This document shows, in pieces, positions 2,536 to 17,502 of a stretch of 64,000 nt of DNA (positions are counted from its first letter, which is position 1; each line of letters opens with the position of its first letter). The DNA is taken from the NCBI RefSeq assembly GCF_013387455.1, contig NZ_VWNC01000009.1, forward strand, positions 1 to 64,000, given 5' to 3'. Both the position numbers and the translations under genes were made by a program. The notes beneath the pieces are model-generated. The model was not told where the DNA came from and did not search any database. It was given only the letters and a program-made list of their open reading frames with translations. This stretch comes from Mariprofundus sp. NF. Its GTDB lineage: Bacteria > Pseudomonadota > Zetaproteobacteria > Mariprofundales > Mariprofundaceae.

Positions 2536-3312
2536 TTAGCGCAGAAGTCGCCGTGAGGCCAGACGGGCTGCGAGAGTGAATCCGGCAACGGCATAAAGTG
2601 CGAGAACGCCTACATGCAGCCACGGCATGGTTAGTGGCATTTCGGTCAAAAGGGGGCGAATCAGTGCCACGGCATGGGTCAGAGGTAAAAGCTGGGCAAT
2701 CATCTGAACAAGGTTGGGCAGGGTATCAATCGGATAGAAAACACCACAGAAGAGGAACATCGGAGTCACGGCCAATGTGAAGTAGTAGAGGAAGAAATCG
2801 TAGCTGGGGGAGATGGCACAGATCGCCAGAGCGGGGCCAGCAAAAGCAAGTCCAATCAGGAAGATCACAGGCAGGGCGAGAAAGGCGGTTTCCCACTGCT
2901 GGATACCACCGAGCAGGCCTGCCACGAGAAAGATCGCTGTGCCGCTAATAAGACTCTTGGTGGCTGCCCAGATCTGCTCTCCGGCAATGATCTCCTGCAC
3001 ACGAACCGGTGTGGCGAGCATCGATTCCCAGGTGCCCTGCTGATTCATGCGTGTGAAGGCTGAATAGAGGCTCTCAAAGGTGGCGGTGTTCATGGCACTG
3101 GAGCAGAGGATGCCGCTGGCCAGATAGGCCATGTAGGGGATGCCGCCCATATCTCCAATGTAGCTGCCCAGTCCGTAACCCAGACCCAGCAGATAGAGGA
3201 AGGGGTCTCCGAAATTACCCAGCATCGATGCGCCGGCCAACTGTTTCCAGACCAGAAAGTTGCGCCGCCATACAGCCAGCACATGGGTGGGAATGAGCTG
3301 GAAGAGGCTCAT
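2536..3312 (-). CDS. ABC-2 type export permease, NodJ-like
   Basis: This 258-residue polytopic protein has about six membrane helices and the ABC-2 permease pattern seen in NodJ and drug-export permeases (WKQLAGAS..GNFGDPFLYLLGLGYGLG near the N-terminus, GTWESMLATPV in the cytoplasmic loop). Its start overlaps the stop of the ATPase gene by four bases, so the pair is translationally coupled. Together they should form an exporter of a lipid-like or saccharide substrate at the inner membrane. Substrate unknown; true Nod-factor export is unlikely as no nod genes are present. Confidence 0.85.
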   Translation of the reverse strand: MSLFQLIPTHVLAVWRRNFLVWKQLAGASMLGNFGDPFLYLLGLGYGLGSYIGDMGGIPYMAYLASGILCSSAMNTATFESLYSAFTRMNQQGTWESMLATPVRVQEIIAGEQIWAATKSLISGTAIFLVAGLLGGIQQWETAFLALPVIFLIGLAFAGPALAICAISPSYDFFLYYFTLAVTPMFLFCGVFYPIDTLPNLVQMIAQLLPLTHAVALIRPLLTEMPLTMPWLHVGVLALYAVAGFTLAARLASRRLLR

Positions 3313-4226
3313 GCCTCCTCCCTCATGTCGCGGCCGGTAAGTTTGAGAAATACATCCTCCAGTGAGGCCGGGCGATGAATGAAGGTGAGTTCACTGCGCT
3401 CGGCACAGCGGGTCACCAGAGGTCGGGCATCAATGCCGTAGCAGAACCATGTATCACCGACATGGTCACGGCGGATATCCAACCCTTCGCAGAGTTCAAT
3501 GGCATCGAGTTCATTATGCAGTCCCCGAATCGCCACCACCTCCGGCTCAACATGTTCTCTGATCAGGTCTCTCGGTGTACCGCGTGTTAAAATATTGCCG
3601 CGATCAAGCACCATCAGCTCATCACACAGCTCGGCAGCCTCCTCCATGTAGTGGGTGGTCAGAATCAGGGTTTTGCCAGCAGCTTTTAGTGATCGCAGCC
3701 GTTGCCAGATCAGATGACGGGCCTGCGGATCAAGGCCTGTGGAGGGCTCATCGAGCACAATCAGGTCAGGGTCATTGATCAGGGCGCGGGCCACCATCAG
3801 TCGCCTGCGCATGCCACCGGAGAGGGTGGCGACCTGATCATCGCCACGCGAACTTAGTGCAGCGAATTCGAGTAGCTCCTCAATGCGCGGTTCGGCCTCT
3901 TTGGCAGAAATGCCGAAATAACCGGCATAAACCTTCAGATTCAGGCGTACCGAGAAGTCGGGATCAAGATTGTCCTGCTGCGGCACGACACCAACCCGAC
4001 TGTGAATGGCCGCTTCAGAGACATCTCTATCGAATAGCCGGTAGTCACCTGCAGTGACCGGGCTGAGCCCCATCAACATGCGAATCAGGGTTGTTTTTCC
4101 AGCTCCGTTGGGGCCGAGAATGCCGAAGCAGATACCGGGGCGAATATCGAAATCGATACCGCAGACCACGTCGCGATCTGCAAATGTTTTGCGCAGGGAT
4201 TTGGCGCTGACTACGGCTTGGCTCAT
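3309..4226 (-). CDS. ABC exporter ATPase, NodI-like
   Basis: This 305-residue ATP-binding subunit has Walker A GPNGAGKTT, Q-loop VVPQQDN, signature LSGGMRRR, Walker B LIVLDEP and H-loop TTHYMEEA in the right order, plus a C-terminal extension typical of the NodI/DrrA group. It drives the ABC-2 permease encoded immediately downstream. I chose ATG 4226 (MSQAVVS) because GGGAGATTAGGG precedes it and homology starts there. The longer frame runs into the regulator's promoter region. The gene is divergent from the ArsR gene with 95 bases between them, so it may share its operator. Confidence 0.88.
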   Translation of the reverse strand: MSQAVVSAKSLRKTFADRDVVCGIDFDIRPGICFGILGPNGAGKTTLIRMLMGLSPVTAGDYRLFDRDVSEAAIHSRVGVVPQQDNLDPDFSVRLNLKVYAGYFGISAKEAEPRIEELLEFAALSSRGDDQVATLSGGMRRRLMVARALINDPDLIVLDEPSTGLDPQARHLIWQRLRSLKAAGKTLILTTHYMEEAAELCDELMVLDRGNILTRGTPRDLIREHVEPEVVAIRGLHNELDAIELCEGLDIRRDHVGDTWFCYGIDARPLVTRCAERSELTFIHRPASLEDVFLKLTGRDMREEA

Positions 4227-4285
4227 GACCCTAATCTCCCATATCCAGCTACAACTGCAATGCATAGAAAATATAATATTACATG

Positions 4286-4321
4286 TTGCTAATATAATTA
4301 GAATCGAATATATTACGGGTC
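4286..4321 (+). promoter_or_regulatory. Sigma-70-type promoter and inverted-repeat operator of the ArsR operon; probably leaderless
   Basis: A -35-like TTGCTA (4286-4291), a 17-base spacer and a -10 TATATT (4309-4314) are followed 7 bases later by the ArsR start codon at 4322. Transcription would begin at or within a base of the ATG, and no Shine-Dalgarno sequence is present, so a leaderless message is likely. A perfect inverted repeat, TAATATA at 4290-4296 and TATATTA at 4309-4315, spans the spacer and the -10 box. That is where an ArsR dimer would block RNA polymerase. Boxes and repeat are seen; regulation is inferred. Confidence 0.6.
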
Positions 4322-4651
4322 ATGAATGATTTACCTCAGATCCCAGAAGATAGAATCAAAGCTGCCAGCCAGGGTTTAAGGGCGATTGCGCACGAGTTGC
4401 GTCTCTCTGTTCTCTGCCTGTTGCTGGAGCGACCGATGTGTGTCCACGAGTTGATTGAGGCTACTGGTGCAGCGCAGTCCAATCTCTCACAGCATCTCTC
4501 CAAGATGCGTATGCTTGGCATTCTTGAGAATGAGAAACGTGGTCAGGAAGTGATCTACCGTATCGCCAATCCGGCTTTTGCCGATCTGGTGCAGGCGCTG
4601 AAGTTCATCTACTGCCCTGAGATGTGTGTGGCGCCGAAAGAGGAGGGCTGA
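4322..4651 (+). CDS. ArsR-family transcriptional repressor, SqrR/BigR-like cysteine pattern
   Basis: This 109-residue winged-helix protein has the ArsR recognition region at residues 42-68 (ELIEATGAAQSNLSQHLSKM) and a wing (EKRGQEVIYRI). Cysteines occur at 32, 40, 98 and 102. C32 (SVLCLL) and C98 (KFIYC) fall at the places of the two cysteines of the persulfide-sensing repressors SqrR/BigR/YgaV; a metal-type CVCD motif is absent. It is the first gene of the TolC-RND-rhodanese cluster and divergent from NodIJ. I infer reactive-sulfur sensing by a disulfide or tetrasulfide switch; a metal or other redox signal remains possible. Confidence 0.85.
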   Translation: MNDLPQIPEDRIKAASQGLRAIAHELRLSVLCLLLERPMCVHELIEATGAAQSNLSQHLSKMRMLGILENEKRGQEVIYRIANPAFADLVQALKFIYCPEMCVAPKEEG

Positions 4652-6027
4652 TGGCCTTTTTTTGCCCCAATATATCAGTAAATTCTAATTATGTAATGAA
4701 GAGTCTACTGCTGGCTGCAGCACTCTCCGGTTCAGTTACTTCCGTGACTGCCGCAGAAATTTCTACACTAAGGCAGAGTGTGGATTATGCCCTCTCCAAC
4801 AATCGTATGCTGGCAGCCAATGTGCAGTCGGTTGAGCAGGCTAATGCGGGTATCGCCGATGCAACTGGCCGTCTGCTGCCGCGTGTTGATCTCTCCACCG
4901 GTGTGGCGCGCAGCAATGCACCGGGTGACTATTTTGGCATGAAACTCAATCAGCGCAGCATCACTGCCGCTGATTTCAATCCGGCCGTGATGAATAATCC
5001 CGGTTATATCAATAATTATCAGAGCCGTGTCGGTGTGACCATGCCGCTCTACCAGGGTGGTGCACTGTGGGCCGGTCGAAAACTTGCCGCGCATCGCGCC
5101 GAAGCAAGCATCTATGGCCACGGTTTTATGCGCCAGCAGGTGGTGTTTCAGGTGATTTCAGCCTATGCCCGCGTCAGGCAGTCACAGGCGCAGATCAGTG
5201 CGATGCAGCGTGCAGTCACTGCGGCTGATAAACGTTACAGAGATACCCAGGCTATGGAGCAACGTGGCGTGCTGATCAAAAGTGATGTGATGGATGCCAA
5301 CGTGCATCAGTTGCGTACCACGCTCAAGCTTGAAGAGGCGAAAAACAGTTATGCCAGTAGTAAAGAGATGCTGGAGCGGGTGATGGGGCTTAACGGTGAT
5401 GTCACCCTGAATACCGAAGAGGATCCACAGCTGAAGATGCCGGTTCTCACGTTGCAGGAAGCCATCAACAGCGGGATAGCCAATCGCCCCGACCTGAAAG
5501 CGGTCGAAGCGCAGTATCTGGCCTCATCAGCCGGTGTCGATCAATCACGCGCCTCATTTCTTCCGCATGTGAATCTGGTTGCGGCACAGGAGTGGAACTC
5601 ATCCACTTTCGGCGTGAAAAATCGTAATACCATGGTGGGGGCAACCGTCAGCATGAATATCTTCGCCGGTGGCTCTGATCGTGCCAAACATCGCGCTGCG
5701 CAGGCTGAATCTGTATCGCTTGAATATAAATCCGCTGATCTGAAACAGCAGATTCATAATGAGATCGGCCAGGCCTGGCGTCAGCTGGCGGAGAGTCGTC
5801 TGCGTTATGAGAGCGAGAGTGAAGCACTCAAGCAGAGCGAGGAGTCATTGCGCATTAAATCACTGCGTTTTGAGCAGGGGCTGGCCAAAACCTCAGATCT
5901 GCTTGATGCGCAGGTGCAGGCCGATTCGGCCCGCGTTGCCGCCATTCGCGCCAAATATGATTTCAACGTTGCCCAGGCAGCACTACTGCTTGCAACAGGC
6001 ACACTTAATGAAGGAGTGATTCAATGA
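4651..6027 (+). CDS. TolC-family outer-membrane efflux protein
   Basis: This protein of about 458 residues has the two internally repeated helical-hairpin halves of TolC-type channels, with YQGGALWAGRK and FAGGSDRAKHRAA marking the equivalent strand-helix junctions. It should form the outer-membrane duct of the tripartite pump encoded downstream. GGAGGG precedes ATG 4651, which overlaps the ArsR stop by one base (TGATG). However, the signal peptide proper begins at Met 4696 (MKSLLLAAALSG...AAE), so that may be the true start. The stop overlaps the next gene by ATGA. Confidence 0.9.
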   Translation: MAFFCPNISVNSNYVMKSLLLAAALSGSVTSVTAAEISTLRQSVDYALSNNRMLAANVQSVEQANAGIADATGRLLPRVDLSTGVARSNAPGDYFGMKLNQRSITAADFNPAVMNNPGYINNYQSRVGVTMPLYQGGALWAGRKLAAHRAEASIYGHGFMRQQVVFQVISAYARVRQSQAQISAMQRAVTAADKRYRDTQAMEQRGVLIKSDVMDANVHQLRTTLKLEEAKNSYASSKEMLERVMGLNGDVTLNTEEDPQLKMPVLTLQEAINSGIANRPDLKAVEAQYLASSAGVDQSRASFLPHVNLVAAQEWNSSTFGVKNRNTMVGATVSMNIFAGGSDRAKHRAAQAESVSLEYKSADLKQQIHNEIGQAWRQLAESRLRYESESEALKQSEESLRIKSLRFEQGLAKTSDLLDAQVQADSARVAAIRAKYDFNVAQAALLLATGTLNEGVIQ

Positions 6028-7052
6028 ACAGATTTATCGGTTTTGCGGCAGCAGTCTCAACCGCTCTGCTGTTAACAGCCTGTGGCTCCGATGAACAGGC
6101 CTCTCAATCGGCTTCACCACTGGTTTCCAAAGCTGAGTCGCTGACTATAACCGCGATGGATCTGCCTGTTCGTTATGTTACCAGTGGCAGTGTGACCTCT
6201 GATCATCGTGTTTCTATCTCATCTCGCATTTCAGGTTATATTCGTAAACTGTCGGTTCGTGAAGGCGATAGTGTGAAGTCAGGTCAGGTACTGGTTCGTG
6301 TTGATCCAGTGAATGCTCGGCAGGGGCTTGTGCAGGCAGAGGCTGATCTGGCTGATGCCAAGGGTGATCTGAATCGCTACGAAGAGCTGTTCAAGGCCAG
6401 TGCCGTGAGTAAACAGCAGCTTGATCGTGTGCATCTGCGTTACAAAGTAGCCCGTTCTCAGGTTGAGCAGGCCCGCAATCAGCTCGGATATGCTGAGGTG
6501 CGCTCGCCGGTGGATGGTGTGGTGGTTGAAAAACGTATGAATAAAGGTGATCTGGCATCACCCGGTGCAGCGATTCTGGTGATTGAGGATCCGGCCAACC
6601 TGCTGGTGGAGACCTATGTCTCTGATCAGTTTGTCAGTGGCATACATGAAGGTGATGAGGTGGAGATTGAGGTTTCATCACTGAAGCAGGCTTTTACAGG
6701 CATCGTGCGCCAGGTTGTACAGGCGGCAGATGCTGTCTCACATCAGTTTCTGATTAAAATTTCACTGCAGGCCAGAGATGATGTGCATCCGGGCATGTAT
6801 GCCCAGGTTGGATTTAAGGTTGCAAGCCGCAAGGGGTTGCAGGTTCCTGCCGCAGCGGTGATTGATCGTGCCGGGCTTAACGGTATCTATCTGCTTGATG
6901 ATAAGGGTGTTGCCCACTACCGCCAGATCAGAGTAGGGCAGATGAGAAATGGTCAGATTGAAGTGCTGGCCGGACTTCATGAAGGCGACACGATTGCCTG
7001 GAATGGCCAGCCTGCATTGCTAAGCGGCATGAAGGTGCAGGCTGCACAATGA
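6024..7052 (+). CDS. RND efflux periplasmic adaptor (membrane-fusion protein), lipoprotein
   Basis: This 342-residue adaptor starts with a lipoprotein signal (LLLTACGS, lipid on Cys20) and has the HlyD/AcrA order: a split lipoyl half (SGYIRKLSVREGDSVKSGQVL), an alpha-hairpin around residues 95-150, the second lipoyl half (YAEVRSPVDGVVVEKRMNKG) and the beta-barrel domain. It links the RND pump to the TolC-like channel. It overlaps its neighbours on both sides by four bases, which indicates coupled translation. Confidence 0.92.
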   Translation: MNRFIGFAAAVSTALLLTACGSDEQASQSASPLVSKAESLTITAMDLPVRYVTSGSVTSDHRVSISSRISGYIRKLSVREGDSVKSGQVLVRVDPVNARQGLVQAEADLADAKGDLNRYEELFKASAVSKQQLDRVHLRYKVARSQVEQARNQLGYAEVRSPVDGVVVEKRMNKGDLASPGAAILVIEDPANLLVETYVSDQFVSGIHEGDEVEIEVSSLKQAFTGIVRQVVQAADAVSHQFLIKISLQARDDVHPGMYAQVGFKVASRKGLQVPAAAVIDRAGLNGIYLLDDKGVAHYRQIRVGQMRNGQIEVLAGLHEGDTIAWNGQPALLSGMKVQAAQ

Positions 7053-10000
7053 GTGAAAAAACATCACTGAACAGTGAGGCGCATTCAGATAGTGAGGCGC
7101 CTCTGAATATAGCCGGTCGCCTTGGTAAAGCGGCGATGTTCTCCAATATTACCCCAATGCTCAGCATACTGATCTTCCTTATCGGTCTGCTGGCCCTGAT
7201 GGTGACCCCGCGTGAGGAGAATCCACAGATTGATGTGCCAGCTGCCAATGTCTTTGTGCAGATGCAGGGGGCAAGCCCGGAAGAGGTGCAGAACCTGATT
7301 GTGCGGCCTATGGAGATGGTGCTGCGCGAGATTACCGGTGTTGAACACACCTATGGCATGGCGATGGATTCGCTGGCTGTGGTGACTGTGATGTTTGAGG
7401 TTGGCGAAGATAAAGAGGTCAGTCTGGTCAAACTCTATGACCGCATCATGCAGAACATGGATCGTATTCCAGCCGGTGCTTCACAACCGCTGGTGAAACC
7501 GGTGGATGTGGATGATGTGCCGGCATCGGTGATCACACTCTCATCCCGGGATATGGATGGTTTAGCACTAAAACGTCTGGCTGAACGTGTTCGCGATCAG
7601 TTGGCACCGCTTGCCGGGGTTTCAGTAGCTGAAATTATTGGTGGATCTGATCATGAGATCAGTATTCGTCTGGATCCTTCGCGACTGGCTGCATATCAGA
7701 TTCCTCTGGATCAACTGCACAATGTGCTGGTGTCAGCCAATGCCGGTGGTCCGGTCGGTTCACTGGTCGGTGATAATCGTGAGACTAAAATCTGGCTGAA
7801 TGGTTATTTGAAAACCGCTGAAGAGGTCGGACAACTGGTTGTCGGCCAGTGGCAGGGCAGGGCGATCTATCTTAAAGATATTGCCACGATCTCTGATGGC
7901 GCTGCTGAGGCGGAGAACTATCACCGCATCGGTTTTGGTTCGGCTCATGCCAAGGGGCAGGGGACTTTGGAACCCGAACTTCCGGCAGTATCGATTGCAC
8001 TGGCTAAGAAACGTGGCACCAATGCGGTTGACGTTACTCAGCGTATTGAAGAGAAGCTGAATGAGCTGCAAGGCGATTTTATTCCGGGCAATGTTCAGGC
8101 CACGATCACCCGCGATTCGGGCGAACGTGCCAATGCGGCTGTGAATATGCTGCTTGAACATCTCGGTATCGCGATTGCAACGGTGATTCTGATTCTGCTG
8201 CTTTTCCTTGGCTGGCGGGAAGCGGCCATTGTGACCATGAATATTCCACTGATTCTGTTTGTGGTGCTGGCGATCGGCCTGATGGCAGATCAAACCATCA
8301 ACAGGATTACACTCTTTGCGCTTATTCTGGCGCTGGGTCTGCTGGTTGATGATGCCATCGTGGTGATTGAGAACATTCATCGTCATCTGCACAAAGGCGT
8401 GAAAAGCGCAGCGGATAAGGCACGTTTGATTGTCATTGCCACCAATGAGACGGGAAAACCAACCATTATTGCAACCATTGCTGTGATTCTGGCCTTTGTG
8501 CCGATGGCCTTTGTGACCGGCATGATGGGGCCATATATGGGGCCTATCCCGTTTAATACACCTGTGGCCATGGCCGCTTCACTGGTGATTGCCTATATGT
8601 TTACACCGTGGATTGCACAGCGTTTTCTGCCAACCCAACTGGTGAGTCAGGTGCAACATCATGAAGATGCCGAAAAGGATTGGGTTTATCGCACCTATGT
8701 CCGTTTTGCTACGCCATTGATTGAGAATAGTGGTGTTCGCAAGTTGTTCTGGCTGGTTACGCTGGTTCTGTTTGTGGCAGCGATGATGCAGCCGGGCTGG
8801 CAGTTCCTCAGGCCTGCAGGCATCAATGGCCCGCTGACCCCCGGTACAGTTGAGCTGAAGATGCTGCCTAAAGGTAATAATAACACATTTAATATCACCA
8901 TCGACCTGCCGGAAGGTGCAACGCTTGAAGAGAGTGACCGCATCTCACGTCAGGTGGGTGATGTGCTGCGTGCGCATCGTATGGTGATCGATTATGAAAC
9001 CTTTGTCGGTCAGGCCGGCCCTGTCGATTTTAATGGTATGTTGCGTGGCGCTGTACTCAGAAAAGGGGCAAACCTCTCTGAAATTCGTGTGAATCTGGTC
9101 GATAAACATGATCGCTCCATCCGTTCAGCTGCCATTGTGCTTGAATTGCGCGAGCTCTTAAGTGGTGTCATGGCGGCCAATCCGCATGCCATTATCAAAC
9201 TGGTTGAAGATCCTCCGGGTCCACCGGTTCGTTCAACACTGCTGGCTGAGATCTATGGACCTGATTATGAGGTGCAGCGCCGGCTGGCCACAGCGGTGCG
9301 TAAGCAGTTTAGCCAAACCTATGATGTGGTTGATATCGATGATTCAGTGGGTGAAAACCAGATGCAGTTGAATGTGCATGTGGATAAGGAGAAGGCTGCT
9401 CATCTGGGTGTGGCAACCAGACAGGTGGTGACAGCACTGCAAGATTTCCTTAAAGGTTATAACTTTGGTGCAGTGCATGTTGATGAAGAGCGTCATCAGG
9501 TGCGTCTGCATGTGCAGCTGCCTAAGGCACTGCGCGCCCATGCTGAAGATCTGCACCGCATCTATGTCAGCGGTGCTAACGGCGCGGTACCACTCTCCTC
9601 ATTTGCTGTGATAGAGGAGGGGGTGGCCTCTAAACCGATCTATACCAAAGATGGTCATCCGGTGACCTATGTGATGGCAGAGCCTAAGCAGGGATCACAG
9701 GTCTATCCGCTACTGGAGATGGATGGCAAGATTGATGAGCAGGAGATGCTTCCCGGTGTAAGTGTGAAAACCGGTGGCATGCGTTTCACCGATACCGCAC
9801 CGGAGAATACCTTTGGCTATCATCTGCTGTGGGATGGCGAGATGCGTCTTACACTGGATGTGTTCCGTGATCTGGGGGCTGCATTCATTGTCGCACTGGT
9901 ACTGATCTTCCTGTTGATGGTGGCCTATTATGGTCAGTTCGTGCTGCCGATGATGGTGATGGCACCAACAGCGCTGACCATGATCGGTATTTTTCCCGGC

Positions 10001-10378
10001 CACTGGATTACAGGACAGCCATTCACCGCCACATCGATGATCGGCATGATCGCACTTGCCGGTATTGTGGTGCGTAACTCCACCCTGCTGATCGATTTCA
10101 TTGTTGATTACCGTAAGCAGGGGTACTCGGTGAAAGAGTCTGTATTAGAGGGTGGGGCAGTACGTGCGCGTCCGATTCTACTGACCGCCCTGGCTGTGAT
10201 TGCAGGTACTTCAATCATGATTACCGATCCGGTATTCGGAGGATTGGGAGTATCCATGGCCTTTGGCACGCTGGCAGCCACAATCCTGACGCTGTTTGTG
10301 ACCCCGTTGATGTATTATCTGTGGCACAAAGATCGTCCACTCGAGTCCGAGCAGGCCAACTTGGAGCCTGACCAATGA
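7049..10378 (+). CDS. RND-family inner-membrane efflux pump
   Basis: This 1109-residue transporter has the RND architecture: helix 1 after an unusually long hydrophilic N-terminus (about 40 residues), a large periplasmic loop, helices 2-6, a second large loop and helices 8-12. The proton-relay pair Asp434-Asp435 (GLLVDDAIVVIEN) in helix 4 is present, as are HAE-type motifs after it. It pumps a substrate out using the proton gradient together with the adaptor and TolC-like partner. It is slightly longer than AcrB (about 1050). Substrate is not evident. Its grouping with rhodaneses is more typical of sulfur-related clusters than of multidrug operons. Confidence 0.92.
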   Translation: MSEKTSLNSEAHSDSEAPLNIAGRLGKAAMFSNITPMLSILIFLIGLLALMVTPREENPQIDVPAANVFVQMQGASPEEVQNLIVRPMEMVLREITGVEHTYGMAMDSLAVVTVMFEVGEDKEVSLVKLYDRIMQNMDRIPAGASQPLVKPVDVDDVPASVITLSSRDMDGLALKRLAERVRDQLAPLAGVSVAEIIGGSDHEISIRLDPSRLAAYQIPLDQLHNVLVSANAGGPVGSLVGDNRETKIWLNGYLKTAEEVGQLVVGQWQGRAIYLKDIATISDGAAEAENYHRIGFGSAHAKGQGTLEPELPAVSIALAKKRGTNAVDVTQRIEEKLNELQGDFIPGNVQATITRDSGERANAAVNMLLEHLGIAIATVILILLLFLGWREAAIVTMNIPLILFVVLAIGLMADQTINRITLFALILALGLLVDDAIVVIENIHRHLHKGVKSAADKARLIVIATNETGKPTIIATIAVILAFVPMAFVTGMMGPYMGPIPFNTPVAMAASLVIAYMFTPWIAQRFLPTQLVSQVQHHEDAEKDWVYRTYVRFATPLIENSGVRKLFWLVTLVLFVAAMMQPGWQFLRPAGINGPLTPGTVELKMLPKGNNNTFNITIDLPEGATLEESDRISRQVGDVLRAHRMVIDYETFVGQAGPVDFNGMLRGAVLRKGANLSEIRVNLVDKHDRSIRSAAIVLELRELLSGVMAANPHAIIKLVEDPPGPPVRSTLLAEIYGPDYEVQRRLATAVRKQFSQTYDVVDIDDSVGENQMQLNVHVDKEKAAHLGVATRQVVTALQDFLKGYNFGAVHVDEERHQVRLHVQLPKALRAHAEDLHRIYVSGANGAVPLSSFAVIEEGVASKPIYTKDGHPVTYVMAEPKQGSQVYPLLEMDGKIDEQEMLPGVSVKTGGMRFTDTAPENTFGYHLLWDGEMRLTLDVFRDLGAAFIVALVLIFLLMVAYYGQFVLPMMVMAPTALTMIGIFPGHWITGQPFTATSMIGMIALAGIVVRNSTLLIDFIVDYRKQGYSVKESVLEGGAVRARPILLTALAVIAGTSIMITDPVFGGLGVSMAFGTLAATILTLFVTPLMYYLWHKDRPLESEQANLEPDQ

Positions 10379-10395
10379 ATAACATTGTCAAAGAC

Positions 10396-10563
10396 GTTAA
10401 CCGCAGAGGACGCAAAGGAACGCAAAGTAGAATCTGAAACAGTTCGCAATGAAGATTTGGTTGGAGTGAACTGGCTAATTCACAATTAACTATCAAGTTG
10501 ATGAAGAGCCTTTTCCCTTGCTTTATTTTCCTTTGCGTAACCCTGCCTACTTTGCGGTGAAAG
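10396..10563. repeat. Intergenic repeat pair of the 'CCGCAGAGGACGCAAAGG' type, inverted arms
   Basis: The left arm (10396-10428, GTTAACCGCAGAGGACGCAAAG...) and right arm (about 10530-10562, CTTTGCG...TTTGCGGTGAA) are inverted versions of the same GC-poor repeat. They flank about 100 bases without an ORF. A related inverted pair lies at 58027-58180. Repeats of this wording are scattered between genes in many bacteria; their function is not established. Confidence 0.55.
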
Positions 10564-10604
10564 GTTGTAAGGGTTTAATTTATGAGTAAAAAAGGAGTTG
10601 AAAT

Positions 10605-10823
10605 ATGACTATTCAACGCGCTATACGAATTATTGCGGGCTCATTTATCCTGCTCAGCCTGTTTCTGGCATCACTGTATAACGGTGTGGTGTTAACTGAA
10701 CCCAGCTGGCTCTGGTTCACCGCATTTATCGGTGTGAATCTGCTGCAGTCGGGTTTCACCAACTGGTGCCTGATGGAGACTATTCTTGCCAAGCTGGGCA
10801 TGAAGCAGTGCTGCGAAAAGTAG
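10605..10823 (+). CDS. DUF2892 (YgaP-type) membrane protein
   Basis: This 72-residue protein has two membrane helices and the DUF2892 pattern (IQRAIRIIAGSFIL at the start, GVNLLQSGFTNWCLMETIL in the second helix, then CC near the end). In E. coli YgaP the same module is fused to a rhodanese domain. Here it stands alone, with a membrane-anchored rhodanese encoded next. AAGGAG precedes the ATG by 7 bases. It probably helps bring sulfur-transfer proteins to the membrane; direct evidence is lacking. Confidence 0.85.
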   Translation: MTIQRAIRIIAGSFILLSLFLASLYNGVVLTEPSWLWFTAFIGVNLLQSGFTNWCLMETILAKLGMKQCCEK

Positions 10824-10844
10824 TGGTCTGAAAGGGCCGAAAAG

Positions 10845-10946
10845 ATTGGCGGGCGCAGGCGGCTCCTCTCCCCCCCCCCATACGTGAAAGTCGTTTGCGC
10901 CTGCCGATAAAATTCTACAGAGAGATGCTGTAACAGCTGATCTCTG
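10845..10946 (+). other. Two strong RNA hairpins in the leader of the first rhodanese gene
   Basis: The 5' arm 10845-10857 pairs with 10896-10908 over 13 positions, all Watson-Crick or G-U, enclosing a loop with a run of ten C (10870-10879). A second hairpin follows at 10918-10946: CAGAGA/TCTCTG with an inner GCTG/CAGC. Neither ends in a T-run, so these are not ordinary terminators. They sit in the 141-base gap between the DUF2892 gene and the rhodanese ribosome site and could act as an mRNA-stability or processing element. Confidence 0.55.
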
Positions 10947-10964
10947 AATCGTGAGGATAGATAG

Positions 10965-11363
10965 ATGCAATTTATGCAAGAGAATGCCGTTTACATCTTC
11001 ATCGCGCTGCTGGTGGGATGGATGCTCTGGCAGCGGGTGATCTGGCCGAAGATGTCAGGGGTGAAATCGTTGAGTGCGGCTGACTATATGCAACTGCGTA
11101 ACCGGGAGCATACACTGGTTGATGTGCGCCAGCTCGGTGAGTGGCAAGCAGGGCATGCTACGACAGCAGTTCATATCCCGTTGGGTGAGGTCTCTGAACG
11201 CATGCAAGAGGTCCCCAAAGATAAGATTGTGGTGGTGATCTGTGCATCAGGTACACGCTCCTCCATGGCCGCAACAGCCTTTGCCAATGCCGATTACAGA
11301 GAGGTGTACAACTTCTCCGGTGGCATGGGGGCATGGCGCAGTGCAGGCCTTCCGGTCAGGTGA
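10965..11363 (+). CDS. Membrane-anchored rhodanese
   Basis: This 132-residue protein has one N-terminal membrane helix (about residues 8-26) and then a single rhodanese domain with LVDVRQ at 51-56 and the active-site loop CASGTRSS, with catalytic Cys93. Positive residues just after the helix (WQRVIWPKM..K) suggest the catalytic domain faces the cytoplasm. Rhodaneses carry sulfane sulfur as a cysteine persulfide. A GAGGA ribosome site lies 7 bases upstream of the ATG. First of three rhodaneses in a row. Confidence 0.9.
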   Translation: MQFMQENAVYIFIALLVGWMLWQRVIWPKMSGVKSLSAADYMQLRNREHTLVDVRQLGEWQAGHATTAVHIPLGEVSERMQEVPKDKIVVVICASGTRSSMAATAFANADYREVYNFSGGMGAWRSAGLPVR

Positions 11364-11382
11364 TTACGCCATATCGCCCCAT

Positions 11383-11417
11383 GTGACATTGTCACGGATT
11401 GAAGAGAACAACATAAT
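11383..11417 (+). promoter_or_regulatory. Probable internal promoter with palindrome before the second rhodanese
   Basis: TTGTCA (11389-11394), a 17-base spacer and CATAAT (11412-11417) form a reasonable sigma-70 promoter. A perfect inverted repeat GTGAC-ATT-GTCAC (11383-11395) covers the -35 box and could be an operator. This would let the second and third rhodaneses be expressed apart from the efflux genes. Confidence 0.45.
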
Positions 11418-11455
11418 AAGATTTGCTATATATAGAGAGAGACAGGAGTTAAAAC

Positions 11456-11878
11456 ATGGTTACAAAAAGAGTCTGGTTGATGCTGGCAGCGCTAATCATA
11501 TTACCGATGAGTGCAGCAGCCTGTGGGTTTGGTGAGAAGAGTGCTGAAGGTTATGAAAATACCGCTGTGCAACACGCTTATCAGCACTGGAATCAGGGCG
11601 CTTCATCGGCTGTGCCGTTTGTCTTTATCGATGTGCGTACGCCTGAAGAGTATGCCGAAGGCCATATTGAGGGTGCAATGTTGATTCCTGTTCAGGAGCT
11701 GGCAGAGCGTATCAGTGAGGTGCCTAAAGACGTACAGGTCTACCTCTACTGCCACTCGGGCCGTCGTTCAGCCAATGCAGCCAGCATGCTGGCAAAAGCC
11801 GGTTACACCAACATTGAGAATCTGTTGGGTGGTATCACGGCCTGGAAAGAGGCCACTCATCCGGTGGTAAAACCGTGA
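11456..11878 (+). CDS. Exported rhodanese (periplasmic or lipoprotein)
   Basis: This 140-residue protein begins with a Sec-type signal segment ending MSAAACG, where Cys23 could be lipidated. It is followed by a rhodanese domain with FIDVRTPEEY and the active-site loop CHSGRRSA, catalytic Cys99. It should act in the periplasm, unlike its two neighbours. AGGAG lies just upstream of the ATG. The stop overlaps the next rhodanese start. Confidence 0.9.
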   Translation: MVTKRVWLMLAALIILPMSAAACGFGEKSAEGYENTAVQHAYQHWNQGASSAVPFVFIDVRTPEEYAEGHIEGAMLIPVQELAERISEVPKDVQVYLYCHSGRRSANAASMLAKAGYTNIENLLGGITAWKEATHPVVKP

Positions 11879-12216
11879 TGGAGACTCTGACCGTAGATCA
11901 ACTCTATCCACGTTGGCTGATAGCCCGTGAAAAGAATGAACCCTTTGCCCTGATCGATGTGCGCTCTCCGGATGAGTATCGCACAGTTCATGTGCCCGGT
12001 GCAAAGCTGATCGCACTGAATACCATCATGGCCAGAGCCAATGAGATTCCTAAGCAGGGTGACGTGTTTCTGATCTGTCATTCGGGCGCCCGCTCTGCGC
12101 AGGCAGCAACCTATCTTGAGCAGCAGTGCGGATTTAAGAATCTGATCAATGTCAGTGGCGGAACCATGGCCTGGAGCAATGGCGGTTATCCCACCGAGCA
12201 GGGTTCTGCCAATTGA
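11878..12216 (+). CDS. Cytoplasmic rhodanese
   Basis: This protein of 112 residues has no signal or membrane segment and consists of one rhodanese domain: LIDVRSPDEY and the active-site loop CHSGARSA with catalytic Cys67. ATG 11878 overlaps the previous stop by one base (TGATG); a GTG at 11875 is a possible alternative. It is clearly related to the exported rhodanese before it, probably by tandem duplication. Confidence 0.9.
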   Translation: METLTVDQLYPRWLIAREKNEPFALIDVRSPDEYRTVHVPGAKLIALNTIMARANEIPKQGDVFLICHSGARSAQAATYLEQQCGFKNLINVSGGTMAWSNGGYPTEQGSAN

Positions 12217-12287
12217 CGCACGGCTACAAAAAGATTGTTATGCCGGAATAAGTTTAATCAATTCAAAAGAACAACAGGAGATATAAA

Positions 12288-12488
12288 ATGAAAGCAAATG
12301 TAGGAACAATTGATCGCGTACTCCGTCTGGTAGCAGGCGCGGCTCTGATCGCCTTTGGTTATATGGGTGGCTTAGCTTCCCCATGGAATGCAGTAGCCAT
12401 CGGTGCCGGCAGTGTGTTTGTGCTGACTGCACTGATTAAATTCTGCCCGCTCTATCCACTGCTGGGTATCAATACCTGCAGCAAGTAA
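12288..12488 (+). CDS. DUF2892 (YgaP-type) membrane protein, second copy
   Basis: This 66-residue protein has two helices with the family start NVGTIDRVLRLVAGAALI and ending KFCPLYPLLGINTC. The pattern of N-terminal IDR and C-terminal CPLY..LGI-TC is the classical DUF2892 form, whereas the first copy at 10605 is more divergent. AGGAG precedes the ATG at good distance. It belongs to the sulfur cluster. Confidence 0.9.
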   Translation: MKANVGTIDRVLRLVAGAALIAFGYMGGLASPWNAVAIGAGSVFVLTALIKFCPLYPLLGINTCSK

Positions 12489-12574
12489 AGATCTCCGAAT
12501 CATTTGGCAGAGAGGGTTACCTCTCTGTTGGATGAGGCGAAGGCAGTTATAAAAGGTCTGGATGGTGAATTGAT

Positions 12575-12973
12575 ATGGCAAGATTAACAGCGACATTTAA
12601 AAGTGGAGCGGCATTTGATATCGCCTGCCGTGGTCATTCGGTTGTGATGGATCAGCCGGAGAGCAATGGTGGTGAAGATTTAGGTATGACACCGCCTGAA
12701 TTCTTCGCAGGTTCACTGGCTGGTTGCATCGGTTTCTATGTTGCAAAATATTGTCAGCAGGCAGGTATTGATACCGATGGTCTTAAGGTTGATTGCGACT
12801 GGAGTGTTGCTGAAGATGCACCACGCCGTATTGGTGAGTTCACCATCGGTGTGGTTCTGCCCGGATTGCCTGAGAAGCGACGCAGGGCTGTGGAGCGTGT
12901 GGCATCATCATGCCTGATCCATGCGACCCTGCATCAGACACCCGATATCAATATCAATCTGACTACCGGTTAA
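12575..12973 (+). CDS. OsmC/Ohr-family peroxiredoxin-like protein
   Basis: This 132-residue OsmC-fold protein has the two cysteines of the family, Cys51 (LAGCIGFYV) and Cys113 (SSCLIH), needed for thiol-dependent peroxide reduction. Members such as YhfA-like proteins are often found with sulfur-transfer genes, and OsmC-type enzymes can also act on persulfides. It follows the second DUF2892 gene by 86 bases in the same direction, so I place it in the same response group. Confidence 0.85.
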   Translation: MARLTATFKSGAAFDIACRGHSVVMDQPESNGGEDLGMTPPEFFAGSLAGCIGFYVAKYCQQAGIDTDGLKVDCDWSVAEDAPRRIGEFTIGVVLPGLPEKRRRAVERVASSCLIHATLHQTPDININLTTG

Positions 12974-12994
12974 TGAACAGGAGTATTTGATCAA

Positions 12995-13336
12995 ATGAGC
13001 ATAGAGACACTTGAGCAGGCGATAGAGGAGACAGAGGCTGAACTGGATGGCCGTGGCGCCAGAAAGATGATCAGCTGGGCTGTTGTGACTATCGTTCTCT
13101 TCTTTATCCCGATTGTACTGTTTTTTCAGCTCTTTGCAGGCAGTGCCTATGAGACAAGTTATGCACCGATTGTGCTTGTATGGCTGATGGTTGCCATGGG
13201 TGTCGGTAATATGATTGCCACCGCACTGGCGGCACCGAGAACAGTAGAGCTCAGGCTGGCACTGGCTACGGCATCATCACTGCTGTTAATGCTCAAAGAG
13301 GGTGAGAAGGTAAGCGGTCAGCCTGATGCTGACTGA
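12995..13336 (+). CDS. Two-helix membrane protein, unknown function
   Basis: This 113-residue protein has an acidic N-terminal segment (about 25 residues), two membrane helices (about 27-48 and 57-80) and an amphipathic C-terminal part. An AGGAG ribosome site lies upstream of the ATG. It is 21 bases after the OsmC-like gene and probably co-transcribed. I do not recognise the family. Confidence 0.7.
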   Translation: MSIETLEQAIEETEAELDGRGARKMISWAVVTIVLFFIPIVLFFQLFAGSAYETSYAPIVLVWLMVAMGVGNMIATALAAPRTVELRLALATASSLLLMLKEGEKVSGQPDAD

Positions 13337-13373
13337 GCGGCGTGACTGTTTCGCTTTGTAGATTCATCTTAAC

Positions 13374-14027
13374 ATGAGTAGTCGATTCAACCCCCAGTTC
13401 ACCTATTATCGTCGCGATAAACTCGCCGAAGTTTTCTTTTCGATCTTTCTGGTCGGGCTCTTCTTTCCGAAAAGGATGTTCACAGGCCTTCCCCAGGCGA
13501 AAAACCTTAAAGATAGCGCCATCCTTCTGGCTATGTATCTGGCCATTCCATCGATTATGATGACCACCACCTTTGGCGCTATCGCATCAAGTCTGGCTCC
13601 GAATATGTTTATCGGCGCCCTTATCTTTATCTCTATTCTGCCGGTCTCACTGGCCATTGGTCTCTCCACATCACTGCTGTGGAGCAGCTGGTTGAGCTGG
13701 AGTTTAAGCAAGCTCTCCGGCAAGCCGGTCTCCCTGTTGGCGGTGTTTCAGGTCTGCGCCTATAGCGGGCCACCCTTTGTCATTGCATGGGGTCCGTACC
13801 TGGGGCCTGTGATGGCACTATGGAATCTGATTCTGAACTGGAAGGGGCTGCGCTTTCACTGCCAGATTGGCGGCTGGAAGGTGCTCTTGGCGATGCTTGG
13901 CGGAATCACTCTACTGGCTCTGATCATCATACTGTTGGCATTAGTACTGGTTTTGCTTCTGCCTGAAAATGTGCATATGCTGCTCGAATCGCTGGCGTTG
14001 ATCATGCAACAGAGAGGCTGGTTATAG
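13374..14027 (+). CDS. Yip1-like multi-span membrane protein
   Basis: This 217-residue integral membrane protein has about five helices and resembles bacterial Yip1-domain proteins, with an N-terminal cytoplasmic segment and hydrophobic repeats around residues 47-110 and 120-200. Function is not known for the bacterial family. It follows the previous membrane protein closely and precedes another, giving a run of three small membrane proteins at the end of the cluster. Confidence 0.65.
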   Translation: MSSRFNPQFTYYRRDKLAEVFFSIFLVGLFFPKRMFTGLPQAKNLKDSAILLAMYLAIPSIMMTTTFGAIASSLAPNMFIGALIFISILPVSLAIGLSTSLLWSSWLSWSLSKLSGKPVSLLAVFQVCAYSGPPFVIAWGPYLGPVMALWNLILNWKGLRFHCQIGGWKVLLAMLGGITLLALIIILLALVLVLLLPENVHMLLESLALIMQQRGWL

Positions 14028-14046
14028 TGATAAGAGATGTGAGTCG

Positions 14047-14463
14047 TTGAGTCCTTTATTTCAGTCGCTGCTGATCTATACAGCGATGCTGGTTGTCTTT
14101 GCCTCGATGGTGCACAGCAAAGGGCGCCATTTTAATAATATTCAAACCTTTGAACTGATCTTTCTGTTTGTGCCCTGGCTGACCGTCGTGGCTATGGCCT
14201 ATATCTTTTTCGGCTCCATCGATGCCTTATACGAGCGCACAGGCATATGGCAGTTCTTCTGGATTATGCAGGTGATCGGAGCAGGGCTGGTGGGTAGTTT
14301 CGTGCTGATGCCTCGCTACCTTGTGAAAGCCGATACGTTGGCAGCCAGATTGCTGGTCAATGTGATTGCCAGCCTGAGCATATCTGCTGTTTTTGCTATG
14401 AGCCGGGTATTCCTATTTGCACTCTCCGGTGATGCCTACAGCGTCGGTTGGCCCACAGAGTAG
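14047..14463 (+). CDS. Four-helix membrane protein, unknown function
   Basis: This protein of 138 residues has four predicted membrane helices and no recognised domain. The likely start is TTG 14047; no better codon with a ribosome site is seen nearby, so the start is uncertain. It ends 6 bases before the stop of the convergent hybrid kinase. It probably belongs with the two membrane proteins before it. Confidence 0.6.
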   Translation: MSPLFQSLLIYTAMLVVFASMVHSKGRHFNNIQTFELIFLFVPWLTVVAMAYIFFGSIDALYERTGIWQFFWIMQVIGAGLVGSFVLMPRYLVKADTLAARLLVNVIASLSISAVFAMSRVFLFALSGDAYSVGWPTE

Positions 14464-14469
14464 TTATGC

Positions 14470-17400
14470 TTATTTGATATTAGCCTGAATAGATCGGTTA
14501 AGCTCATCGAAATCAAAAGGTTTATTCAGCACCAGAGCATGCTTCATCTCTATCCCTTTATCGAGCACGTGATCTTTGTCGTAACCGGTGACCAGAATGA
14601 CCGGCATAGCTTCATCCAGCAGGCGCACAGCCTTGAAGAGTTCAACACCACCCATCCGGGGCATGATCACATCAGTGATGATCAGATCGATGCGGTCCTG
14701 ATTCTCCTTGAAAAACTGCATGGCCACTTCACCATTTTCAGCTTCCAATACCCGATAGCCCATGCTTGATAACACCTCACTGGTTGTGTTTCTAACACTC
14801 TCCTCATCATCTACCAGCAGGATCGTTCTACCCGCCTCGATAGTCGTTATCTCATTTTTGTTGTCGCTCTCTGTTATCTGCTCCTCTTCAGTTAAGGGGA
14901 GATAGACACGGAATGTTGTTCCCTTACCAACCCTGCTGTCGATCTCTACTGCACCATGATGGGTCTGCACTGCACCGTAGAGCATGGCCAGTCCAAGGCC
15001 GGTTCCTTTACCAATCTCTTTGGTGGTAAAGAAGGGTTCGAACACCTTATCCATCAGTTCACCGGGAATGCCGTGGCCATTATCTTTAACGGTAATGCAT
15101 GCAAAATGAGATGCTTTCAATTCCGGATGCCTTGACTTGAAGGAACGCGTTGCTGCAAACGGTTCCAGAGAGCATCGAATCATCGGCTTTTCGACTTCAG
15201 TCAAGGCATCGACAGCATTATTCAACAGATTCATCAGTACCTGCTGCATTTGGGTGGCATCGCCTTTGATGTAGAGTTGCTGGCTGCATGTTCGGGTTTG
15301 GTGATCAATGTTTTCCGGGATCAGTGTTTTGGCCAGTTGATATCCATCATCCATGAATCCGTTGAGCGAAAAGAGACGCATTGCCACGTTATCTTTTCGG
15401 GCAAAGGTGAGAAGTTGTTGCACCATATCAGCAGCCCGTGCGCCGAGCTTTTCGATATTGGCCAGTTTATCAGCGGCCACAGGGTGATCCTGCATCTGCT
15501 TTGTCGCCAGATAGACGTTACCCTGAATGGCAGCCAGCATATTGTTGAAATCGTGGGCAATACCCCCGACCAGTGTGCCGATCGCCTCCATCTTCTGGGC
15601 CTGACGCAACTGCTCCTCCAGTTTTTTACGCTCGCTGATATCACGGATGACACTGAAAAAGACACGCTCACCATCAAGCTCAATAATGCGTGCATTGATC
15701 TCCACCGGCATGATGGAGCCATCTTTTCTGTAATGGGCTGTTTCGAAAGTAGCCATGCCATGTTTTATAATCTGTTCCAAACGCTCAGGAACCCTTGCAG
15801 CGAATTCCGGCGGATCCAGTTCGGTGAGCCTCATGCTCATCATCTCATCTTTTGTATAACCCAGCCGCTCATAAGCAGTCCTGTTGATATCGATAAAATC
15901 ACCCTGCATATCGATAATGAACAGGCCATCACTGGAGGAGTCAAACAGCATGCTGAAGCGCCTTTGACTCGTTTCCAGAAGCTGCTGCTGACGTCTGCTT
16001 TCGGTGATGTCTCGCCAGATACAGTAAAGCTGTTTTTTTCCACCAAATTCAATCTGAGCAAGGGTTATTTCAACAGGGAAGCTTTCACCATTTTTGCGCA
16101 GGTGCTCCCATTCGAAGCGATGTATGCCGTTGGCATGAGCGGCGGCCATCATGGCATTGGCTTTCTCAAACGATTCGCGACCGTCCGGCTGTAGCTCGGG
16201 CGAGAGCTTCGAGGGATGGATGGATGAGAGCTCCTCTATCGAATCGTATCCGAGAATATCGGCGGCAGCCTGATTACAGAGCGTGAACATGTTCTCTTCG
16301 TTGATGATCCAGCAGGGATCCGGTGAGTTATTAAACAGGCCCCTGAAGCGCGCCTCGCTCTCCTGGAGTGCCGCCTGTTTCTGTTTGCTGTCAGTGATGT
16401 CCCTGTCGAAAGCGACATTATAAGCCTTGTCTCCGAACTCCATATAGTTAGCGATCACTTCGATAGGGAAACGCTCACCATTTTTGCGCTGATGTTCTGT
16501 CTCAAGAGGTATAGATATGTTCTGTTTAAGATCTTGCCAATGCTCATCCCACACTGCCATCGGAAAGAGGGGATCGATATCCGGGATGCTCATCTGTAGC
16601 AGCTCTTGCTGCGTATAACCGAGCGTTTCACAACCCGTTTTATTGATGTAGCGGATACGGGCATCCGAATCCAGGTAGGTGATATTCAGCGGGGCATGGT
16701 CGAGAACAAACTTGGCCAGCTTCAGCTCCTCTTCCTGCTGTTTAGGCTGGGTGACATCCCTTATCGTGCCCTCAACACCCGTAACATTGCCCTGTTCATC
16801 ACGAAAATAGTGCGCATTGGTCGAAACCCAGATGATTTCACCATCCACTCTTCTGATTTGGGCCTCAAAGTTGTTTACAATGCCTCCGCCCTTACGAAGT
16901 GCATCAAGGAATTTTTCTCGCTGTTCGGGATGAACGTAGAAGTCGGCAATGGTTTTATTTAGCAAGTCACCACGCTGACAAGCCATTAACTTCTCTGCTG
17001 AAGGTGAAACCATAACCACGCGGCCCTCAATATCGGTGCAGTAATAGGCATCCTGGAGGCTATTGAAGATGTTTTTTAGAACCCTTTCTGAGTTTTTCAG
17101 TGCTGTCTGTTGCTCTTTTTCAGCAGTGATATCTTCATAGGCACCTAAAATGCCGATGATGTTTTTTTCGTGATCACGAAGGGGTACCTTAGAGGTGCGC
17201 AGCCAGATTGTTTGTCCGTCGGATGAGGTTAGTGGCTCTTCAAAGGCCAGTTTGGGTGTGCCGGATTCCATGACTTTAAGATCATCTGCACGAAAGGCTT
17301 CAGCCTGTTCATGCCAGGCCATATCGAAATCACTCTTACCGATTAACTCATCCGGCGATGTAAGCCCGGCATCCCTGGCCACCAAACTGTTGCATCCCAG

Positions 17401-17502
17401 AAACTTACCTTCGCGATCTTTCCAGAAGATACGAATCGGAACGCCTTCGACAATATCCTGTAGAAGATCATGCGAGGCGAGCTGGTTGATGATCTCTTTC
17501 AT
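14470..17502 (-). CDS. Hybrid sensor histidine kinase with five PAS domains
   Basis: This 1010-residue protein has no membrane segment, so it is a cytoplasmic sensor. It carries five PAS modules (about residues 10-125, 137-250, 262-378, 385-500, 510-625). The H-box GGIAHDFNN follows, then the ATPase motifs [21 protein letters not shown] and [11 protein letters not shown], and a C-terminal receiver with [17 protein letters not shown] and LNKPF. It should autophosphorylate on the H-box His and pass phosphate to its own receiver. No output gene is adjacent. The kinase-receiver core is closely related to the two other hybrid kinases in this window. Confidence 0.92.

Follow-up and report, generated by a model that had tools for sequence, protein, structure and literature searches.

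A run of genes in the 2.53-Mb genome of a marine, iron-oxidising Mariprofundus (Zetaproteobacteria; 24 contigs) joins an ArsR-family repressor to a complete TolC-adaptor-RND efflux pump and a series of sulfur-handling proteins, and raises two questions: whether the pump is a chance companion of these genes or a regular member of a response to reactive sulfur, and what it exports. The initial annotation of the window, by which we mean the whole 64,000-nucleotide stretch of contig C9 that was analysed, had treated the pump as the unusual feature of the group. We suggest, with a probability of roughly 0.6, that this is a sulfide/persulfide-response cluster derepressed through ArsR, whose pump would remove a product built up under sulfide; judging by gene order, the pump is a recurrent part of that response and no local oddity.

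Gene content and boundaries of the cluster

Genes were assigned from open reading frames and family searches on the window. The first (4322–4651, + strand; HTH_5, 2e-13) encodes an ArsR-family repressor of the SqrR/BigR/YgaV/HlyU type, carrying C32 and C98 together with the additional cysteines C40 and C102. It is followed on the same strand by a TolC-family outer-membrane channel (4651–6027; TolC/OEP, PF02321, 2e-63), whose signal peptide suggests that the true start is an in-frame ATG about 45 nt downstream, by an RND periplasmic adaptor, a lipoprotein with lipobox Cys20 (6024–7052; RND_mfp, TIGR01730, 3e-61), and by an RND permease of 1109 residues with no cysteine among them (7049–10378; ACR_tran, 7e-154). 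These four reading frames overlap by a few bases, a tight operon arrangement.

Behind the pump, likewise on the + strand, lie a DUF2892/YgaP-TM protein of a pump-linked subtype, DUF2892a (10605–10823; PF11127, 6e-13), with an invariant C55 (27/27); three rhodaneses (PF00581), namely RhdA with an N-terminal membrane anchor and the loop CASGTR (10965–11363; 3e-17), RhdB with a PspE-like export signal (11456–11878; 2.5e-22) and the cytoplasmic RhdC with the loop CHSGAR (11875–12216; 3e-16); a second DUF2892/YgaP-TM copy, DUF2892b (12288–12488; PF11127, 1e-21), with invariant C53 and C64; and an OsmC-family thiol peroxidase-like protein (12575–12973; PF02566, 5e-16), with C51 and C113 invariant in 11 sequences. 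The cysteines of interest in the rhodaneses, DUF2892 proteins and OsmC are all conserved in relatives, those of the rhodanese CxxGxR active-site loops invariably so (C93 of RhdA 24/24, C99 of RhdB 26/26 and C68 of RhdC 23/23). Every component listed in the initial annotation was found, all in one direction, between 4322 and 12973. Its island, drawn from 4226 to 14463, proved too long at the far end: 12995–14463 encodes three membrane proteins for which family searches give a weak Yip1 match, otherwise nothing convincing and no sulfur family, and which are kept in the nearest relatives only, so that we set the end of the sulfur cluster at 12973.

On the other side, a divergent ABC-2 exporter (ATPase and permease; 2536–4223, − strand), found at this position in the closest relatives too, has its intergenic region in common with arsR and could share the arsR operator. 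The flanks further hold a multi-PAS hybrid histidine kinase (14470–17502, −), a cytochrome c'-like protein (754–1245, −) and a transposase fragment (26–316, −). Elsewhere in the genome, a further DUF2892 copy of the pump subtype lies directly downstream of a MarR-like gene (L163, G000:C1:310500-316000), and a DUF2892b copy lies behind a CRP-like regulator (L164, G000:C1:54000-59500), a pair that in relatives sits inside the sulfur cluster.

The pump and its neighbours in other genomes

Throughout the Mariprofundales the gene order ArsR-TolC-MFP-RND-DUF2892a-RhdA-RhdB-RhdC persists. The search for the same arrangement in related genomes, proposed with the initial annotation, found ArsR-TolC-MFP-RND-DUF2892-rhodanese(s) in about 24 Mariprofundales genomes and partial modules in other families. 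When 33 members of the pump clade from outside the Zetaproteobacteria were compared with 40 other RND loci for neighbours within 5 kb, DUF2892 was found beside 14/33 and 0/40, respectively (Fisher 2e-6), and ArsR beside 8/33 and 0/40; none of the 40 control pumps has a DUF2892, ArsR or SQR neighbour. Rhodanese neighbours (5/33 versus 2/40) are not significant alone. In a separate set of 14 genomes, the best-match RND lies within 5 kb of DUF2892 in 11/14, against 0/91 for the other RND pumps; the selection of these genomes was partly guided by the linkage itself, which inflates the first figure; the control figure is unbiased. Within its own genome, no RND other than the window pump has a DUF2892 nearby, and at L076 the gene order is SQR-DUF2892-MFP-RND.

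Because the DUF2892 linkage holds for 14 of the 33 distant clade members and for none of the 40 controls, we regard the pump as a recurrent partner, contrary to the initial view of it as unusual in a persulfide-response group. The pairing is moreover on record in a 2025 neighbourhood analysis centred on H. denitrificans sHdrR/SoxR, which places RND efflux pumps beside sulfane-sulfur ArsR regulators (PMC12423496); those pumps may belong to the clade described here or to another. The clade is not purely sulfur-linked, since 18/33 distant members are without any scored marker, no sulfur gene adjoins the pump in genome G030 (L063), and the three plasmid relatives described below likewise stand apart from sulfur genes.

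In a tree of 68 RND proteins including AcrB, MdtB/C, CusA and the control pumps, the window permease falls in a fully supported 44-member clade, which sits on a long branch and excludes AcrB, MdtB/C, CusA and all controls. Rows with sulfur neighbours are clustered on this tree (10 changes versus 20.0 in shuffles), and not every row has them. The permease shares with HAE-type pumps (AcrB, MdtB/MdtC, MexB) the fold family and the DD/R/T proton relay (D434, D435, R1039 and T1046), but it is 20–23% identical to the E. coli pumps, belongs to a separate clade and has R1009 in place of AcrB K940, a position that is Arg in all 44 clade members, while the D, R and T of the relay are kept. Everything that defines the HAE group (ACR_tran; D407, D408, K940, R971 and T978 in AcrB numbering) is present except K940. 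A heavy-metal (HME) type was considered and rejected, as the CusA metal-binding methionines and E939 are absent (M573, M623, M672 and E939 are T, L, E and R here). Among the permease residues inspected, none points to a sulfur ligand. In other families, the clade pumps of L072, L091 and L099 show a second association: small membrane proteins of a recurring type, about 185 aa long, come after them, one at L072 and two each at L091 and L099.

It is possible, though not probable, that reactive sulfur induces the operon while the pump itself is a broad exporter of lipophiles, for instance membrane-damaging metabolites or antibiotics, that was co-opted for this response and has no sulfur substrate. 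The HAE-type relay and the missing heavy-metal methionines would suit such a pump, and antibiotic tolerance in E. coli has been linked to YgaV (PMC9774250). Plasmid relatives of the permease are 37–46% identical to it, and the three examined (44–46%) lie beside TetR or AraC regulators and lipid, isoprenoid or fatty-acid genes, without sulfur linkage. These plasmid members, together with the many clade members that lack sulfur neighbours, make a lipophile a serious rival substrate. Against it, the DUF2892 linkage is repeated in unrelated families and is absent from the other RND pumps of the same genomes, which hints at a closer link to sulfur.

The sulfide/persulfide-response reading draws further on the sulfur genes of relatives. 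Across 29 zetaproteobacterial loci we count SQR in 15, DUF302 in 15, TauE in 10 and an ETHE1/PDO-like hydrolase in two, all in the same cluster, which bears out the reactive-sulfur neighbourhood originally proposed. The cluster SQR of relatives matches solved structures of the A. ferrooxidans enzyme at 1e-166. Neither the window strain nor either of its two closest relatives has the cluster SQR. In G007, G020, G016 and others it occupies the slot before osmC, and here that slot holds, at 12548–12574 (+), a local match to the last SQR codons of relatives (the SQR 3' end of L045) that was reached by 0/2000 shuffles. This suggests that an SQR gene was deleted from the gap before osmC and probably left a scar there, though the match is short and may partly reflect conservation of a ribosome-binding region. 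The genome yielded a single SQR homologue, a distant SQR-like flavoprotein (L165, G000:C5:203566-204435; about 39% over 270 aa).

The regulator and its promoter

In alignments, C32 and C98 of the ArsR protein fall on the sensing-cysteine positions of YgaV, BigR, SqrR and HlyU, and all 25 zetaproteobacterial orthologues carry both. In an AlphaFold model (mean pLDDT 87), C32 lies in helix 2 (25–36) and C98 directly after the last helix, helix 5 (84–97), which matches the helix 2 and helix 5 placement described for the conserved cysteine pair of persulfide sensors (PMC10509353). The SqrR/BigR-type pair recognised in the initial annotation therefore stands, alignment with SqrR, BigR, YgaV and metal-type ArsR proteins having put both residues on the SqrR positions rather than away from them. 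Among regulators of known inducer, the best solved-structure matches are YgaV (55 bits), BigR (49), HlyU (49) and SqrR (48), and metal-type regulators score lower (NmtR 35, SmtB 31, CgArsR 30, CadC 27). The NCBIfam BigR equivalog NF040642 gives 58 bits against a curated cut-off of 155, so the protein is not a BigR orthologue in that sense. A fold search with the model ranks SqrR and HlyU high, but it places M. smegmatis SmtB first and metal sensors close behind, and so does not discriminate inducer type. In other families, the pump-adjoining ArsR proteins of L085, L093, L100 and L103 keep C32 and C98 but not C40 and C102, which marks the persulfide pair as the shared feature; as an exception, L070 retains the module and the operator and has D at position 32.

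We consider it improbable that ArsR responds to thiophilic metals or metalloids (As(III), Cd, Hg or organotin) via C40, C98 and C102 and that the cluster confers metal resistance. The idea stays alive because every zetaproteobacterial orthologue has C40, at the position of an arsenic-type ligand (cysteine 1 of the E. coli ArsR CxC), and nearly all have C102; moreover, E. coli ygaVP is called a tributyltin-inducible operon in a 2008 paper title cited in PMC12423496. As(III) sensors carry a C-(V/A)-C motif (PMC10509353), however, and its second cysteine is absent here: helix 3 has C40-V-H42, and position 42 is H, N, Q or A in relatives. Distant members of the module, moreover, have neither C40 nor C102, the CusA methionines are absent from the permease, the cluster neighbours are sulfur genes, and the genome has a separate CVC-type ArsR beside an arsenite-transporter-like gene (L166). 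An arsenic-type ArsR was rejected on its CVH in place of C-(V/A)-C and the lack of arsenic genes nearby.

Ahead of arsR, the inverted repeat ATATTA-N8-TAATAT (4276–4295, +), conserved in relatives, is a candidate ArsR operator over the −35 box of a sigma-70-like promoter, TTGCTA-N17-TATATT (4286–4314, +), identified by its consensus match and ungapped conservation; an imperfect second copy in the sequence (4292–4311, +) covers the −10 box. The upstream regions of most orthologues align ungapped, with TTGCTA or TTGATA, 17 nt, a TATATT-like hexamer and ATG 7 nt on, and because the ATG is so close to the −10 box the arsR mRNA is predicted, from the consensus match, to be leaderless. With 0–1 mismatch, the repeat occurs, in register or offset by half a repeat, in 18/24 orthologous promoters versus 0.2% of shuffled upstream regions, and the distant locus L070 has a perfect copy of ATATTA-N8-TAATAT. 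The 4-8-4 spacing is that of the SqrR site, ATTC-N8-GAAT (PMC9774250), with half-sites ATTA/TAAT instead of ATTC/GAAT. A genome-wide search for the pattern gave six sites; none of the other five lies beside sulfur genes, and we therefore claim no wider regulon. A perfect operator-like repeat, ATATTATTATTTTATAATAT, directly upstream of a cbb3-oxidase-like operon (L161, G000:C3:18199-18218) may have arisen by chance or may mark a further target of the regulator.

Co-transcription of the sulfur genes downstream of the pump with the ArsR operon is plausible from their arrangement; since gaps of 226 nt (after RND), 141 nt (after DUF2892a) and 92 nt (after RhdA) intervene, a single transcript from arsR to osmC is something that we infer. 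Scans for sigma-70 promoters and terminators gave site counts no higher than in shuffles. The 226-nt gap holds an inverted repeat (arms 10410–10427 and 10521–10538) and folds slightly better than shuffles, but as z is only −2.0 we claim no terminator there. A repeat-like element (ACCGCAGAGGACGCAAAGG ... CTTTGCG) at 10400–10538, between RND and DUF2892a, is present in single copy in the window. An accidental pairing of two independent units, one the ArsR-controlled pump and the other a rhodanese/DUF2892/OsmC group with promoters of its own, would account for the 226-nt gap with its repeat-like element, the further gaps, a promoter-like site at 11389–11417 and the absence of an operator box before DUF2892a or any later cluster gene, but it is very improbable given an order kept across the Mariprofundales, an RND-DUF2892a junction that is short or overlapping in many relatives, and partial modules that recur in other families.

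A proposed sulfide response

From gene content and order, the conserved cysteines, the operator-like repeat and promoter, and the recurrent linkage, we infer an inducer, repression, downstream co-transcription and a substrate as follows. Reduced ArsR would bind the boxes at 4276–4311 and block its own leaderless promoter. A rise in sulfane sulfur (persulfides, polysulfide) would form a sulfur bridge between C32 and C98, as in SqrR/BigR/HlyU, sensors marked by an intraprotomer tetrasulfide and loss of DNA binding, and take the repressor off the DNA, allowing expression of the TolC-adaptor-RND pump and of the sulfur genes that follow. Together with the two DUF2892 proteins and OsmC, the cytoplasmic, membrane-bound and periplasmic rhodaneses would pass on or reduce sulfane sulfur, and the proton-driven pump would clear from the membrane or periplasm the product that accumulates under sulfide. 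Our leading guess for this substrate is a sulfane-sulfur species (polysulfide, zero-valent sulfur or an organic persulfide), an unrelated lipophile being less likely. The SQR, TauE and PDO of relatives would belong to the same response.

We favour the persulfide-response reading because of the cysteine pair, the SQR, DUF302, TauE and PDO genes of relatives, the DUF2892 linkage and the conserved operator; the D32 of L070, the lost SQR of the window strain, the lack of a downstream operator box, the clade members without sulfur neighbours and a permease that gives no sign of a sulfur ligand count against it. Sulfide does not support the growth of two Mariprofundus strains in which SQR genes have been annotated (PMC5513912), which fits a role in detoxification, and both sqr and a rhodanese are under SqrR control in R. 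capsulatus (PMC9995734). A narrower proposal, that the K940R-type RND clade works with the pump-linked DUF2892 subtype as a dedicated export route for sulfane sulfur, expelling the zero-valent sulfur or polysulfide that SQR produces at the membrane, seems doubtful to us.

Among known systems, E. coli ygaVP (the YgaV repressor and the YgaP rhodanese-DUF2892 fusion) is the minimal relative: it has the same RSS-type ArsR cysteines, with a rhodanese and a DUF2892 under that regulator, but it lacks a pump, OsmC, SQR and extra rhodaneses, and in Mariprofundus rhodanese and DUF2892 are separate genes. The SqrR/BigR/HlyU operons (sqr, blh, rhodanese, TauE, PmpAB) have the same helix 2/5 cysteine pair and 4-8-4 operator spacing, and SQR, PDO, TauE and rhodanese neighbours in common with the Mariprofundus relatives, whereas the Mariprofundus ArsR has the extra C40 and C102 and a complete tripartite RND pump as its presumed first target. 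Persulfide-sensing ArsR regulators with rhodanese and sulfur-transporter neighbours have been described (PMC10509353). In the open-access literature we found no paper on this RND clade or its tie to DUF2892. Described here are the RND clade, its DUF2892 linkage with controls and the candidate zetaproteobacterial operator; an RND pump beside a sulfane-sulfur ArsR was already known (PMC12423496).

How cells dispose of excess sulfane sulfur other than by oxidation is poorly known. In many proteobacteria gene order links this pump clade to persulfide sensors, SQR and DUF2892, which makes it a concrete candidate exporter. The same linkage makes the function of DUF2892/YgaP-TM proteins testable, and the cluster indicates a sulfide-defence system in iron oxidisers.
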